NCBI RefSeq assembly: GCF_002237575.1
Contig: NZ_CP022535.1
Location: 248,001 to 312,000, forward strand
DNA length: 64,000 bases
Direction of reading: 5' to 3'
Source of the DNA: Spiroplasma corruscae
GTDB lineage: Bacteria > Bacillota_I > Bacilli_A > Mycoplasmatales > Mycoplasmataceae
Shown here: piece after piece, positions 18,718-51,264 of the stretch
How positions within the stretch are numbered: the stretch's first letter is position 1
How the letters are laid out: every line of letters begins with the position of its first letter
The notes under the pieces: model-generated
Told to the model about the DNA's origin: nothing
What the model saw: the letters and a program-made list of their open reading frames with translations, nothing else
Databases searched by the model: none
Made by a program: the position numbers and the translations under genes

Positions 18718-18734
18718 AATATTATCAAATTCCC

Positions 18735-18791
18735 TTGAAAATACTATAAAGTGGTATATAATAATAGTTGTGTGGGAGAAAGTGGGGCATT
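18735..18791 (+). promoter_or_regulatory. mraZ promoter with three phased MraZ-like boxes
   Basis: TTGAAA (18735-18740), 16 bases, TATAAT (18757-18762). Three GTGG boxes overlap it: AAAGTGG with GTGG at 18751, TGTGGG with GTGGG at 18772, and AAAGTGGGG with GTGGG at 18782. Their starts are 21 and 10 bases apart, so all three lie on one face of the helix. MraZ of Mycoplasma gallisepticum is known to bind AAAGTG[T/G] repeats upstream of its own gene, so autoregulation is likely. Confidence 0.75.
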
Positions 18792-19223
18792 ATGCTATTC
18801 GGAAGTTTTGAACATAATCTTGATAGTAAATTAAGACTTACAATACCGTCTAAACTACGTAATAAACTGGGGGCGGTTGTTTACGTAACTAGAAGTATTG
18901 ATGGTCAATGTTTAGAAATTAGAACTCCAGAAAACTTTAATGAGTTTTATAAGAGTTTACAAAATCAAAACACACTACTTTCATCTGCTCGTACTGTAAT
19001 TAGATCTATTTTTTCAAACACAGATGAGGTACAAATTGATAGTTCAGGAAGAATTAAACTTCCTGCCAATTTACTTGAAGAAGTAGGAATTGCAAAAATG
19101 GTTCAAATCACTGGGGCTGGTGAGTGAATCGAAGTATGAGATAAAGAGAAATTTATTGCTTACGATAAGATGGCTAAAAAAGAGCTTGTAGAAGCTGCTG
19201 AAAAATTGGGCGGAGTTAAATAA
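18792..19223 (+). CDS. mraZ: Transcriptional regulator MraZ
   Basis: 143 residues, typical length. MraZ is a ring-forming DNA-binding protein with two SpoVT/AbrB-like half domains and controls the division and wall (dcw) cluster. Both copies of the DxxGR-type motif are visible: HNLDSKLRLTIPSKLR and QIDSSGRIKLPANLLE. ATG 18792 was chosen because the protein then starts MLFGSF as in other MraZ proteins; a TTG further upstream is in frame but lies within the operator boxes. Trp TGA at 19125 and 19137. It heads the mraZ-rsmH-ftsA-ftsZ unit; rsmH starts 2 bases after its stop. Confidence 0.95.
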
Positions 19224-19224
19224 A

Positions 19225-20169
19225 ATGGAAAAAGAACATATATCCGTATTACTTCAAGAATCAATTGATATATTAGATTTAAAAAATAATGGATTATATG
19301 TTGATTGCACTTTGGGCAGGGCTGGTCATAGTGCAAAAATATTAGAAAAATTAAAAGAAGGTCATTTATTTTGTATTGATCAGGATGATGATGCAATTAA
19401 ATATTCCGAAAAAATACTTGAAGCAATTTCAAGTAATTTTACTATTTTGAAGGGAAATTTTATAAATATAAAATCATTATTGTATTTAAATAATGTAGAA
19501 AAAGTCGATGGAATTATTTACGATTTAGGAGTTTCAAGTCCGCACTTTGATAACCCTGAAAGGGGTTTTAGTTATCGTTTAGATGCTTTATTAGACATGA
19601 GAATGGATAATAACAATAACAAAGTCACTGCAAAAGACTTAGTTAATAATCTAAGCGAACAAGAACTTACAAATATATTATTTAAATATGGTAATGAAAG
19701 TTTTGCACCAAGAATTTCAAAGAAAATATGTGAGTATCGTATTGGACAAGAGATAAAAACAACATTACAATTAGTTGAAATTATAAAATCAGCATTACCA
19801 CAAAAGGTGTTAAAACAAAAAAAACATCCAGCGAAAAAAACATTTCAAGCATTAAGGATATATGTAAATAATGAGATTGAATGTTTAAAATTATCACTTG
19901 AACAAGCACAAAGCATATTAAATATAAATGGTGTTTTAGCAATAATAACTTTTCATTCATTAGAAGAAAAAGTCGTAAAAGAGTTTTTTAAATCGCTATC
20001 ATATGATATAAATGAGAAGTTTTACAAAAAGTTACCAATTAGTATAGAATTAAATAAAAAGTTTGAAATATTAACAAAAAAACCAATTAAGCCAAAATCG
20101 TTAGAATTAGAAAATAATAATAGAAGTCATAGTGCTAAGTTATGAGCAATTAAGAAAGTGGGTGATTAA
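19225..20169 (+). CDS. rsmH: 16S rRNA m4C1402 methyltransferase RsmH
   Basis: 314 residues, normal length. RsmH (MraW) methylates N4 of C1402 in the decoding centre of 16S rRNA using S-adenosylmethionine. The SAM-binding stretch YVDCTLGRAGHSAKIL lies near residues 25-40; GIIYDLGVSSPHFDNPERGFSYR carries the conserved DLGVSS motif; LAIITFHSLEEKVVKEFF is the catalytic FHSLED motif. The C-terminus ends ELENNNRSHSAKLWAIKK, the common NPRSRSAKLR-type end. Part of the mraZ cluster, directly after mraZ and 2 bases before ftsA. Confidence 0.95.
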
Positions 20170-20171
20170 AT

Positions 20172-21683
20172 ATGTTTAAAGAAGTATATGCTGTTCTTGA
20201 AGTTCAACGTGATGAAATTAAATTTGCTGTTGGTATTTTTAGAGATAACAGAGGTCTAAAGGTAGTTTATAAAGAAAGAGTTAAAGGAACTTGATTAACT
20301 GATGAAGATGAAATAATTGATATTAATAGAGTTTCACAAAAGTTAAGAAAAGCAATCAACTCGTATAATGCAAACTTTAAAGACAAGTTAGTTAGAATAT
20401 CAGTAGTCCTTCCTTCTAAGACTTTGCAAATCAAAGATGTTAGTTCTCATATAATAGTAAATTTCCCAAACATTGTTACACACGAACATATTAGATTATT
20501 ACACAGTGAAGCTAATAAGATAAACTTTGATAAAAGAAATGTCATGATAAACATAAAACCTTATAATTTTATTATTGATAATCAATTTGAATTTGGTATT
20601 ACACCAATCAATGCTCCAAATGTGCATAGCATAACTATGTTAGCAAAAATATATACAGTAAACCAGAAGGTTTATAAATCATTTAAAGAAGTAATAAAAC
20701 AATCAGATATAGATTCATTACTTATCACAAGTGATATGTTCTCGATAGCTAGACAAATAAATAGTGAAGCATCTTTTAAAGAGAATTTTATAACTATTAA
20801 CTGAGGTAAAAATCAAACTGATATAGGTTATTTTTGTAAAGAAACCCTAGTAAAAAAAGAAACTGTTAGTTTTGGAATTAAGGATATAATCTCAAATATT
20901 GCAACTAAATTAAATTGTAAAAATGATGTAGCTGAGAAATATATATTCAAGTTATTAGATTTCTCATCTAACGACCAAAATGAATCTATAATTTATAGAA
21001 AATATATTTCTAAAGATAAGTTATTAAGTGAGTTAACTGCTAGTCAAATTAAAAATTTAGTTATAGAAGAATTAAATTGAATAGTTGATAAAACTGATGC
21101 ATGTATTGAAAATGAACTAAAAGAAAGTATCCATGGATTTAAAATTTTACATGTCGGTAAAATGACTGAAATTGCTGGTTTTGAAAAGATTTTACAAAGA
21201 AGTAAGTTTAAGAATAATGCATCTGTATATTACTCACTTGTTACAGGCGCGAGTGAAATTTGGTTAACTAGTATTTGTGGTATGATTAAAATGGTAAGAA
21301 TTTATAATAAAAACTCGGATAAACTAATTACAAGTAATTTGGAAATTGATAAGAGTCAAATTATGCAACCACTTAATAATCAAAACTTAAATATAAACAA
21401 TCAATTTAATAGGGGGATTGTCAATCCAAGAATTCTTAAACAAGTTCAAAGAAATTATGTTCAGAGAAACCATAATAACATTGGTTCAAAAACCCAAAAC
21501 AATGGTTTGCATTTTCAGAGAAATATGCAAAATAATGCAAATTTTTCCCATTTTAATGCAAATTTAGGGCAAAATAATCATAGTTGGCAAAATAACAATC
21601 AAGTGGATAAAAGTTATGGGTATCAAAATAACGGCGTACCTATTAATAATGAGTTTATGAATGATAAGACAAAGAATAGATAG
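20172..21683 (+). CDS. ftsA: Divergent FtsA-like protein with Asn/Gln-rich tail
   Basis: 503 residues. FtsA is the actin-like anchor that ties FtsZ to the membrane. Position (between rsmH and ftsZ) and parts of the fold suggest FtsA: the N-terminal strand segment MFKEVYAVLEVQRDEIKFAV, the phosphate-2 region ITINWGKNQTDIGYF followed by VSFGIKDIISNIA, and the GFEKILQRS segment. The usual DIGGGT-type loop is degenerate, so ATP binding is doubtful. From about residue 397 a ~107-residue tail is rich in Asn and Gln and surely disordered; FtsA usually ends near 420 with an amphipathic helix, which is not evident here. TGA codes Trp at several sites. Confidence 0.7.
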
Positions 21684-21697
21684 TAAAGGTGAAAAAT

Positions 21698-22981
21698 ATG
21701 GCATTAGATAAGAATTTTAAACAAACTGCAAGAATTAAAGTTATCGGAGTTGGTGGTGGAGGTTGTAACGCCGTTAACAGAATGGTTGAAGATAATGTAC
21801 AAGGTGTAGATTTCTTCATTGCTAACACAGATGCGCAAGTACTTTCTGCAAGTATTGCCCCAAATAAAATTATTTTAGGGGAAGAATTGTCGAAGGGATT
21901 AGGAGCGGGTGCTAACCCAGAAATTGGTAAGCAAGCCGCTATTGAATCTGCAGAAGAAATAAGAAATGCTCTTTCTGATTCGGACCTTATATTTGTCGCT
22001 GCTGGAATGGGTGGAGGAACAGGTACAGGTGCTGCACCTGAAATTGCAAAAATTGCAATGGAAACTGGCGCTTTGGTAATTGCTATTGTTACAAAACCAT
22101 TTAGGTTTGAAGGAAAATTAAGAAACTCATACGCTGTTAAAGGTATTGAAGAACTTAGAAAATATGTTGATTCAATTATCACAATTTCGAATGATCGATT
22201 ATTAGATATAATTGGTTCAATACCTGTTAAAGAATCATTTAGAGAAGCAGATAATATCTTAAAGCAAGGAGTTCAAACAATTACTGATTTAATCGCTGTC
22301 CCAGCCGTCATAAATCTAGACTTTGCTGATGTTAGAACTGTTATGAAGGGTAAAGGTAATTCTTTATTTGGAATTGGGATTGGTTCTGGTGAAGACAAAG
22401 CTATAGAGGCTGCAAATAAAGCTATAACTTCATCTTTGCTAGAAACATCTGTTAGAGGTGCAAAAGATGCAATAATTAACGTAACAGGTGGAAAAAACGT
22501 CACTTTAAATGACGCTTATGATGCAGTAGATATTGTTCAACAGGCAAGTGGTGAAGATGTAAATATTATTTTTGGTATTGCTATAAATGAACATTTAGGT
22601 GATGAATTAATAGTTACTGTTATTGCAACTGGTTTTGATGAAGATTATGAACCTGCACATGTCTCAAATAATATTACAACAAATAATACTACACCTAAAA
22701 AACCGGCTCAAGCTGAGCAAAGCTTATCAGAAGAAATAGTACCTGAAGACTTAGAAACTGCTTATGAACAAAGAACTAGTTTTTTGAATTCAAACGAAAA
22801 AAGACATGAATTTGTTAAGAGAACAGAACAAGATAATAATAAAATAAACGAGAGAGTAGACCGTTGAAAAGAAAATAGAGTTGAACAAAAGTCTTCAAAT
22901 CAACCAAAAGTTGCTCAAAAAATTGAAGATACAGAAGATGATGATGGTGATTTTCCAACTTTCTTAAGAAAAAAATGATAA
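21698..22981 (+). CDS. ftsZ: Cell division GTPase FtsZ
   Basis: 427 residues. Tubulin-like GTPase that forms the division ring. IKVIGVGGGGCNAVNRM near the start and AAGMGGGTGTGAAPEIA (tubulin signature) bind GTP; NLDFADVRTVMKGKG is the T7-loop region. A variable acidic linker follows, ending in the conserved peptide DFPTFLRKKW that binds FtsA or other partners. ATG 21698 is preferred over an in-frame GTG at 21689, which is part of the ribosome site AAAGGTG. Last gene of the mraZ unit; a hairpin terminator follows at 23055. Confidence 0.97.
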
Positions 22982-48924: not shown

Positions 48925-48941
48925 TTTTTACTAATTATATA

Positions 48942-48970
48942 TTGATTATTAAGGGGATTTCAAATATAAT
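48942..48970 (+). promoter_or_regulatory. Candidate sigma-A promoter, TTGATT-17-TATAAT
   Basis: TTGATT at 48942-48947, TATAAT at 48965-48970, 17-base spacing. No protein gene follows; it sits just before a structured region that ends in a terminator, consistent with a small RNA start near 48977. Confidence 0.5.
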
Positions 48971-48976
48971 ATAAAT

Positions 48977-49105
48977 GTCTAAAGCAGGTAATAAAACATT
49001 AGCCCATATTGTTTATTTAGCCCTATTAAATATAATTATTTTTAATATATATATAATAAGCTTGTTTTAGATAGTAAGTACTCCGCCCTGAGTACTTTTT
49101 ATTTT
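48977..49105 (+). ncRNA. Candidate structured small RNA between deoA and the tRNA cluster
   Basis: Not recognised as a known family. A 14-pair helix, uninterrupted but with four G-U pairs, joins 48976-48989 (core TCTAAAGCAGG) to 49060-49073 (core CTTGTTTTAGA). Inside are a possible hairpin (about 48991-49016, ATAAAAC with GTTTAT) and another (about 49024-49047, TATTAAA with TTTAATA). TAGCCC occurs twice in apparently unpaired places, and the terminator loop holds CCGCCC. A promoter lies upstream and a terminator at 49076-49105. No ORF with a start and ribosome site is seen. Existence of a transcript is inference. Confidence 0.45.
49075..49105 (+). terminator. Terminator upstream of tRNA cluster
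   Basis: AAGTACT (49076-49082) and AGTACTT (49091-49097) form a stem around CCGCCCTG, followed by a T-rich run. It ends either the deoA transcript or the candidate small RNA. Confidence 0.7.
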
Positions 49106-49135
49106 TTAAATAAAATAAAAAAAGAACAAAAGGCA

Positions 49136-49165
49136 TTGACTTTTAATTAGTATTTTTTGTATAAT
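49136..49165 (+). promoter_or_regulatory. tRNA cluster promoter, TTGACT-18-TATAAT
   Basis: TTGACT at 49136-49141 and a perfect TATAAT at 49160-49165, spacing 18, about 30 bases before the first tRNA. The best promoter match in the window. Confidence 0.75.
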
Positions 49166-49359: not shown

Positions 49360-49364
49360 CTTAT

Positions 49365-49439
49365 TGGGCTATAGCCAAGCGGTAAGGCAATGGACTTTGA
49401 CTCCATCATGCGCCGGTTCGAATCCTGCTAGCCCAGCCA
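49365..49439 (+). tRNA. trnQ: tRNA-Gln (anticodon TTG)
   Basis: Acceptor TGGGCTA / TAGCCCA, anticodon loop CTTTGAC with TTG, T-loop TTCGAAT, encoded CCA. Confidence 0.95.
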
Positions 49440-50120: not shown

Positions 50121-50156
50121 TAATAAAAACCATTCATATTCGAATGGTTTTTATTA
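50121..50156. terminator. Bidirectional terminator
   Basis: Perfect 15-base inverted repeat (50121-50135 and 50142-50156) with A-rich and T-rich arms, able to act on both strands. It mainly serves the minus-strand lipoprotein gene, whose stop codon lies in the stem. Confidence 0.85.
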
Positions 50157-51029
50157 TCAATTTTTAATTAATGATTTTGAATCAAAATTTAAATCATATT
50201 TTGAAGAATTATATTGTTTAACATCAGATAAACTTATACTTCTAGATTCAGAACTGGTAGTTTCTCCTCCGCTACCTTCAGAAGTTTCTCCTCCGCTTTC
50301 AGCACCATTACCTCCAGAAGTTTCTCCTCCGCTTTCAGTGGCTGAACCAGTATTAATTTTATTAACAAGTTTAGCTTCTATTTCACTATCTAAGAAACTT
50401 TTACCTATTTGTGATACTAAACTTTCTAATGATTTATCAACTCACCCAGTTGTATCCTCTTCAAACCCAACTTCTCAGTCTACAACCTTACCATTTCTAA
50501 TAATCAAGAACATAGGTGTAGCCTTAATCTTATCAAAATATTCTTTAACCTTTTCTTTAGCAACATTTTTCTGAATAGTTTCATTGCTACCGATATTTAG
50601 AGTTAGTTCATAATAAACTTCTGTTAGTTTATCAACTAATCAGGTAACTATGTTTTCACTTCATTTTTCTTTAAAATTATTTGCTTTTTCATCTATTACA
50701 AACTGACGTAAGTTTAGGTTATTGTTTAAAGTTTCACCATAACCAGTAAATGAATCGTTTAAGTTATTTAATGAACTAACATTGTTGTTATATTCACCTG
50801 ATATTTGATTTAATTTATCATCGAAATATTGTTTATTGTATTCAATGTTAGATTCAAATTTTTGACAAAAATCACAATCTTTTGCACCAATATATAATAA
50901 AAAAGTTTCCTTATTATTTATTCATTGCAAGAATTCTTTATAATGCACATTTGAACTACATGAAACTACTGTTGCAGCACTTGAAGTTGCAATAGTTAAT
51001 ACTGACAATGTTGCAAGTATTTTTTTCAA
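50154..51029 (-). CDS. Thioredoxin-like lipoprotein with ESGGET repeats
   Basis: 291 residues, the only minus-strand gene seen. Starts at TTG (51029) with AGGAG before it. N-terminal KK, hydrophobic stretch, and lipobox-like AATVVSC (Cys 24) predict a surface lipoprotein. ETFLLYIGAKDCDFCQKFE is the active-site region of a thioredoxin fold with CxxC, and KATPMFLIIRNGKVV supplies the cis-Pro strand. So it may form, break or sense disulfides outside the cell, or be a bacteriocin-accessory (PedC-like) protein. Near the C-terminus the motif ESGGETS recurs; at DNA level the unit GTTTCTCCTCCGCT starts at 50260, 50284 and 50320. TGA codes Trp. A TATAAT (minus strand) lies at 51071-51076. Confidence 0.75.
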
Positions 51030-51264
51030 ATTAATCACTCCTAAATTACAAATATTATTTTACACATTTAATTATACAATTAGTATAAAAATATTACTTT
51101 ATTACAAATATTTTATGTTTATAGTATAAAAGATTTAAATTTGTATTAAAATTAATAAGAACATAGAAATCTATGAGCATTTTTTAATCTTGTAAAAGAC
51201 TATAAAGCAGTATTTTTTTATGATTAAATAAGTCAACTATATTTTATTTAGAGGAGGTATTAAT

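Follow-up and report, generated by a model that had tools for sequence, protein, structure and literature searches.

The gap between deoA and a cluster of tRNA genes in Spiroplasma corruscae raises the question of whether it holds a small RNA (sRNA) gene and, if so, which mRNAs such an RNA would meet. We addressed this question in a window of 64,000 nucleotides, by which we mean the whole stretch of DNA analyzed; it comes from a 1.2-Mb Spiroplasma-type genome in which TGA is read as Trp. Mollicutes are usually thought to be almost devoid of remaining regulation, and in the literature searched we found no description of a functional trans-acting sRNA in Spiroplasma or its close relatives.

The deoA-tRNA gap contains a candidate sRNA gene

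An initial annotation, made from the letters of the window, had described a promoter, a 14-pair closing helix, two inner hairpins and a terminator in this gap. All of these elements are present and in place:

48942 to 48970, plus strand: promoter, with the −35 element TTGATT at 48942-48947, a 17-base spacer and the −10 element TATAAT at 48965-48970
48977 to 49102, plus strand: sRNA gene of ~126 nt, delimited by comparison, with its predicted 5′ end at G48977 and its 3′ end within the T-run
48976 to 48989, plus strand: 5′ strand of the closing helix P1, from fold and covariation
49060 to 49073, plus strand: 3′ strand of P1, from fold and covariation
48994 to 49014, plus strand: hairpin 1, from the fold, with loop GCCCA (49002-49006) kept in 20 aligned relatives; the stretch 48997-49005 reads CAUUAGCCC and is predicted to pair with mraZ 19114-19122
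49016 to 49026, plus strand: core UUUAGCCCUAU, an exposed loop in invariant alignment columns, forming hairpin 2 in relatives
49076 to 49097, plus strand: intrinsic terminator stem-loop and T-run, with loop CGCCCU at 49084-49089; positions 49080-49088 within it read ACUCCGCCC, the predicted complement of the rsmH ribosome-binding site (RBS)

The 14-pair P1 helix belongs to the minimum-energy fold (−29.4 kcal/mol, z = −4.45), and none of 200 shuffled sequences folded as low. Outside rRNA and tRNA genes, the plus strand of the window has 10 GCCC words in 58.6 kb, and three of them fall within the 126-nt sRNA, each with an unpaired probability of at least 0.94. The suggestion that two TAGCCC words lie outside paired regions thus holds as to their exposure, but the first GCCC is held in the loop of a small hairpin and not in a plain single strand.

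In the single sequence, the promoter is at the level of chance (3 promoter-like sites found versus 4.4 expected) and the terminator match is likewise no better than chance in AT-rich DNA; the case for the sRNA therefore rests on comparison. Because TATAAT is invariant in 22 aligned relatives, six bases 5′ of a conserved G, the promoter is credible. Mapped promoters of S. melliferum have the form TAWAAT, 6 nt and then G or A (PMC5138195), and we placed the 5′ end of the sRNA at G48977 because the locus conforms to it. The plus strand is taken as the RNA on the strength of the promoter, the terminator and the helix variants, many of which are G-U pairs that would be C-A on the opposite strand.

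The initial annotation saw no protein frame here. A 31-codon frame (MSKAGNKTLAHIVYLALLNIIIFNIYIISLF; 48975-49070, plus strand) does overlap the sRNA, with its ATG at 48975 lying 5′ of the predicted transcript start, but it is open in only a few relatives of the window and closed in most. Because no reading frame is kept across relatives, we rejected a small-protein reading of the locus.

Conservation and covariation of the sRNA in Spiroplasma and beyond

A DNA search matched the sRNA in all 20 genus genomes (E 6e-15 or better) and in three genomes of other genera. From 5′ to 3′, the alignment runs through the invariant TATAAT and the conserved G to a start that reads GUCURGRAYAGG and a hairpin of the form CAUUA-GCCCA-UAAUG; these are followed by UUUAGCCCUAU[C/U]AAAU, an A/U-rich part that varies, the second P1 strand and the terminator with its invariant loop CUCCGCCC. 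The promoter, the loop AGCCCUAU and the terminator loop CGCCC are conserved across relatives, and no aligned member of the genus departs from AGCCC and CGCCC in its loops; the core UUUAGCCCUAU is the most conserved part of the family.

Consistent with a compact unit closed by a real helix, as initially proposed, P1 covaries, with both-side changes in 8 of its 12 pairs. The covariation score of the whole structure was 0.265 compared with 0.193 ± 0.010 for shuffled controls, none of which (0 of 500) reached 0.265, and it collapsed when the strands were slid by 1-3 columns. In a wider sequence set, both-side changes were seen at 14 pairs, and again 0 of 500 shuffles matched the covariation. The initial annotation had named missing conservation or covariation of the helix in relatives as grounds for refutation; the comparison shows both to be present.

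Of 60 family genomes, 36 were matched by a covariance model built from 20 sequences, nearly always with a single match; the sRNA was thus found in five other genera of the family too, including a clade in which both neighbors are different. A broader model added six members of the clade g8 (E 7e-4 to 1e-8), and its matches in that clade include one decayed copy. Likewise, most member genomes hold a single copy of the 13-mer TTAGCCCTATCAA, with a reversed-pattern control near zero. In g8, whose genomes measure 1.1-2.2 Mb, the sRNA has a different closing helix and different neighbors (on the ispG side) and retains the promoter, the GUCUAG start, the core UUUAGCCCUA and a terminator with a CACCC loop, which reads CUCACCC at greater length. 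The decayed g8 copy (G054; L222) has lost its promoter and the 5′ helix strand, and its loop has changed from CACCC to CACTC. Another g8 genome (G050; L221) carries an 11-base tandem duplication (TTAATATGACC) directly after the core, in a block that is otherwise constant in g8.

Besides chance matches, a contig scan yielded only Spiroplasma sp. TIUS-1 and a fecal Spiroplasma metagenome-assembled genome. Neither model nor 13-mer searches found the sRNA in genera g2-g6 or g10, or outside this family within the order; the weak matches in genera without the sRNA (G031, G024, G020 and G043) lack a promoter and are best taken as chance.

An element acting in cis, as a leader of the tRNA cluster or a 3′ UTR of deoA, would fit the position of the sRNA between deoA and tRNAs in most of the genus. 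We regard it as extremely unlikely, however, given that the sRNA has its own promoter and terminator, that the five-tRNA cluster has a strong separate promoter at 49136-49165 (TTGACT-18-TATAAT), and that the gene is kept elsewhere without deoA or tRNAs. Because the sRNA persists in g8 with other neighbors and the deoA-tRNA gap exists in G024 without the sRNA, the comparison indicates that this is an autonomous gene and no appendage of deoA or the tRNAs. Also near the locus, at 50154-51038 on the minus strand, is a lipoprotein-like gene whose product carries Ser/Gly/Glu repeats and a thioredoxin-like CxxC motif; L055 has a comparable gene next to the sRNA and tRNA cluster. Overall, the alignments argue firmly that 48977-49102 is a real, previously uncatalogued sRNA gene kept in most Spiroplasma lineages.

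The sRNA matches no Rfam family

The covariance search against Rfam that had been suggested as a check returned no family at gathering or relaxed thresholds, the best weak match being SpF01 with 21 of 55 bits. The view that the RNA is not tmRNA, SRP RNA or RNase P RNA was borne out, as none of these models matched at the locus. The 6S RNA model (RF00013) did not match there either and was not detected in any of the 60 family genomes. This leaves the 6S role vacant, and a divergent housekeeping RNA (6S, tmRNA, SRP RNA, RNase P RNA or mycoplasma MCS4) might fill the locus; the MCS4 RNA of Mycoplasma capricolum, which is 125 nt long, is near the sRNA in size, a likeness by length alone. Against such an RNA stand the Rfam result, the absence of the long double helix with a central bubble that is typical of 6S, and the failure of the R2 model to give a convincing match in the other family genera searched, so that we consider it very unlikely.

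What the locus does have is a free-standing gene with its own promoter and Rho-independent terminator and, at the level of sequence, a conserved unpaired seed complementary to an mRNA encoded elsewhere, as expected of a trans-encoded sRNA. Several redundant C-rich sites, the terminator loop included, are shared with LhrC-type sRNAs. The UCCC loop motif of that type is replaced by AGCCC and CGCCC, and Hfq (PF17209) was found in none of 21 genomes, while control genomes did match; the RNA works like the LhrC type without being a member of it. We thus classify it as a new family of a known kind, that of base-pairing sRNAs, in a host free of Hfq.

The exposed loops complement conserved sites in mraZ-rsmH

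A cluster of GGGC words in the window, seven in mraZ-rsmH (18785-19319) of 28 in 58.6 kb, gave the first pointer to a target. This pointer was post hoc; the scan for conserved 8-mers described below was run without reference to the sRNA. The genes and candidate sites are as follows:

18792 to 19223, plus strand: mraZ, regulator of the division operon and predicted target mRNA (Pfam MraZ, E 1.5e-25)
19225 to 20169, plus strand: rsmH/mraW, 16S methyltransferase gene and predicted target (Pfam Methyltransf_5, E 2e-109)
20172 to 22981: an FtsA-like gene and then ftsZ, downstream of rsmH (Pfam FtsZ)
19206 to 19216, plus strand: site B, TTGGGCGGAGT, at the mraZ end and rsmH RBS; complement of the terminator loop, in 12 of 12 genus genomes
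19113 to 19123, plus strand: site A, GGGGCTGGTGA, inside mraZ; complement of the hairpin 1 and core loops, with GGGCT in 12 of 12 genus genomes
18868 to 18877, plus strand: extra site, TGGGGGCGGT, inside mraZ, in the three nearest species only
19311 to 19325, plus strand: site C, TTTGGGCAGGGCTGG, early in rsmH at the GRxGHS motif, with GGGC in most genus genomes and less constant than sites A and B

At site B, the final mraZ codons, which hold the rsmH Shine-Dalgarno sequence, read TTGGGCGGAG, the exact complement of the terminator loop CUCCGCCC; where this loop is CUCCGCCCAG, the complementarity is lengthened by A-U and G-U pairs. The 8-mer GGGCGGAG, matching the same loop, stands at the rsmH RBS in all 12 genus genomes examined. 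Nine of these were examined after the site had been proposed, as a test, and all nine carry it; it had been seen before in G016 and, in the form CTGGGCGGAG, in G011. The 12 genomes divide evenly at site A: six have TAGGGCTAGG, encoding LGLG, and six have GGGGCTGG, encoding TGAG; GGGCU is fixed in all 12 although residues and register differ. These forms complement UAGCCCUA in the core and CAUUAGCCC in hairpin 1. The predicted terminator-loop duplexes fall at the same mraZ coordinate in 12 of 12 genomes, and those of the other loops do so in most. Because the mraZ-rsmH segment has no GCCC in any genome examined, the sites have no partner in cis.

The initial suggestion that the C-rich loops pair with Shine-Dalgarno sequences, as in some Firmicutes sRNAs, thus fits the predicted pairing at the rsmH RBS but does not extend to a generic anti-Shine-Dalgarno motif: the loops carry GCCC and not UCCC, only 6 of 397 genes have GGGC near their start, and apart from the rsmH RBS the predicted sites lie within coding sequence.

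A G-rich segment might be kept for the protein, for MraZ boxes or for a strong Shine-Dalgarno sequence, with the match to the sRNA a coincidence. In line with this, GGAG is the rsmH Shine-Dalgarno sequence, glycine codons are required at the LGG terminus of MraZ and in the RsmH motif GRxGHS, and MraZ boxes (consensus AAAGTG[T/G]; PMC8475190) account for GTGGGG at the start of mraZ. The region 5′ of mraZ (18730-18790) also has repeats, AAAGTGG and GTGTGGGAGAAAGTGGGG, that resemble MraZ boxes and overlap the promoter and RBS. However, sites A and B are not themselves MraZ boxes, an identical 8-mer is fixed in nrdE, and rare codons (TTG/CTG GGC GGA; GGG) are fixed in 12 of 12 genomes despite AT-rich synonyms. 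Among glycine codons, GGC makes up 4.6% and GGG 7.2%, and of the 142 mraZ codons just two combine invariance with a final G or C, namely GGG-107 and GGC-140, which form the cores of the two sites. Coincidence is accordingly, in our judgment, quite unlikely.

The distribution of sites was compared with that of the sRNA. G024, which has no sRNA, also has no site B. In g12, there is only AGGCGGAG, a partial site B, with no site A, and its RNA has no hairpin-1 GCCC, a pattern that is consistent with loss of both partners, site A and the hairpin-1 GCCC. In g9 and g11, the sRNA is present and site B is absent, and the phylogenetic pattern indicates that the sRNA is older than the rsmH pairing. Because the sRNA family is wider than this pairing, the core loop, which is its most conserved part and does not vary across the family, must have a partner other than, and older than, the sites found.

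Gene scans single out mraZ and nrdE

Our target scan took in about one-third of the genome (270 genes, 309 kb), compared three species that are close relatives of one another and used a simple rule for calling start codons. Among 270 orthologue triples, the conserved 8-mers with at least seven G/C were GGGGGCGG, GGGGCTGG and GGGCGGAG in mraZ and GGGCGGAG in nrdE, together with one in a frame inside 23S rRNA; all but the latter are complementary to sRNA loops. Similarly, in 277 triples, also from about one-third of the genome, the conserved GGGC words in real genes were three in mraZ and one in nrdE. A comparison of 24 protein genes, each with orthologues in 8-12 genomes of the genus, gave the mraZ sites as the only GC-only tetramers kept in at least 90% outside rRNA. 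Taken one at a time, each loop placed mraZ at the top of the 24 genes even though few of them are shorter; shuffled loops reached the observed mean mraZ energy in 0 of 400, 3 of 400 and 0 of 400 trials. Because the gene is G-rich, shuffled versions of the terminator loop still put it in first place in 8 of 20 trials, and the energies are therefore more telling than the ranks.

The second candidate target is:

L127 3488 to 5632 (genome 103488-105632): nrdE, large subunit of ribonucleotide reductase, with GGGCGGAG in the rare codons GCG GGC GGA

This is the same 8-mer as at the rsmH RBS, with a predicted terminator-loop pairing of −18.6 kcal/mol, and it was seen in the three species sampled; it lies at a distance from the RBS, with 434 nt of the aligned frame before it. 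Because the scan took in only about one-third of the genome, the sRNA is likely to have more targets than those found.

Other candidates were set aside. Loop complementarity to rRNA and tRNA was not above that of shuffled loops. The 5′ end of tRNA-Gln in the neighboring cluster (49364-49370, UGGGCUA) complements UAGCCCA of hairpin 1 as a 7-mer; we judged this to be chance, as in other clades the sRNA lies away from tRNA-Gln. A search of the genus genomes for exact complements of the core at other places gave no consistent site. parE (genome 441486) has an unusual RBS, GGUGGGGC, in G000, G011 and G016, with a core-loop pairing of about −15 kcal/mol. Its leader was the top RBS match in the three species and is not conserved in other genus members, so it is no general target; parE is possibly a lineage-specific extra one.

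The sRNA could also be real with its C-rich loops binding a protein, for example of the KH-domain or cold-shock type, and with the G-rich sites in mraZ and nrdE kept for another reason. The core loop is indeed invariant across lineages with differing mraZ sites, and no complementary rRNA site offers itself above the shuffled background. We nevertheless hold protein binding to be unlikely, though less so than the alternatives above: the loops are matched by every GC-rich 8-mer that is conserved outside rRNA in the 309 kb, the three loops independently pick mraZ, and GGGCU of site A is fixed while amino acids and register change.

Discussion

Taken together, the sequence comparisons make it likely that the locus encodes a trans-acting antisense sRNA of ~126 nt, with its own promoter and terminator, that would pair with mraZ-rsmH and nrdE and tie division to DNA-precursor supply. 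Three exposed GCCC loops, in hairpin 1 (UAGCCCA), the core (UUUAGCCCUAU) and the terminator (CUCCGCCC), are available, with P1 holding the 5′ end in a duplex. In the mechanism that we propose, the terminator loop would pair with GGGCGGAG over the rsmH Shine-Dalgarno sequence, and hairpin 1 or the core loop would pair with GGGCU ~95 nt upstream in mraZ. Such a two-point grip would block rsmH translation and, via coupling or decay, levels of RsmH and the downstream FtsA-like and FtsZ products would fall. The full terminator duplex needs two or three pairs of the terminator stem to be opened. Pairing of the same terminator loop inside nrdE would tie division-gene output to DNA-precursor synthesis without Hfq, and a link of the two through the sRNA is probable. 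The sign of control is most likely repression, with activation or control of decay as alternatives. In Mycoplasma genitalium, MraZ represses the division operon and excess division proteins are harmful (PMC8475190), which makes an extra brake on the operon plausible.

Among known systems, LhrC of Listeria is, by analogy, the one that this sRNA appears to work most like. LhrC is ~112 nt long and has three redundant C-rich sites, the terminator loop included, that target a G-rich RBS site (PMC4132741); the likeness lies in size, Firmicutes lineage, the three sites and the RBS pairing predicted here. In contrast, LhrC uses UCCC and not GCCC, has five copies, was found with Hfq, is stress-induced and targets lapB, and we saw no sequence or structural homology between the two. 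Similarly, StsR/UpsM of Rhodobacter sphaeroides brings an sRNA to bear on the mRNA of the dcw division cluster and hence on cell division. There, however, Hfq and RNase E take part, and StsR contacts the dcw 5′ UTR as well as UpsM, itself a UTR-derived sRNA (PMC8307010, PMC5089854); here, in a host in which Hfq was not detected, the predicted sites fall in the coding sequence of mraZ and at the RBS of rsmH. EcpR1 of Sinorhizobium pairs with cell-cycle mRNAs through a conserved GC-rich loop, independently of Hfq, but it is an unrelated RNA of alphaproteobacteria with gcrA and dnaA as targets (PMC4414408). RoxS/RsaE and other UCCC-loop sRNAs of Firmicutes have C-rich loops that block Shine-Dalgarno sequences; here, there is no Rfam match, the motif is GCCC, and one predicted site only is a Shine-Dalgarno sequence.

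We give about an even chance to the fuller reading that this is a dedicated cell-cycle riboregulator of Spiroplasma, Hfq-free, whose three GCCC loops grip the mraZ-rsmH-ftsZ mRNA and nrdE so that division proteins and dNTP synthesis co-vary in a wall-less bacterium. The RNA family is suited to inclusion in Rfam, and its model finds members across the genus. If the proposal is true, post-transcriptional control persists in mollicutes, and the sRNA would provide a handle on the control of FtsZ and MraZ in wall-less cells.
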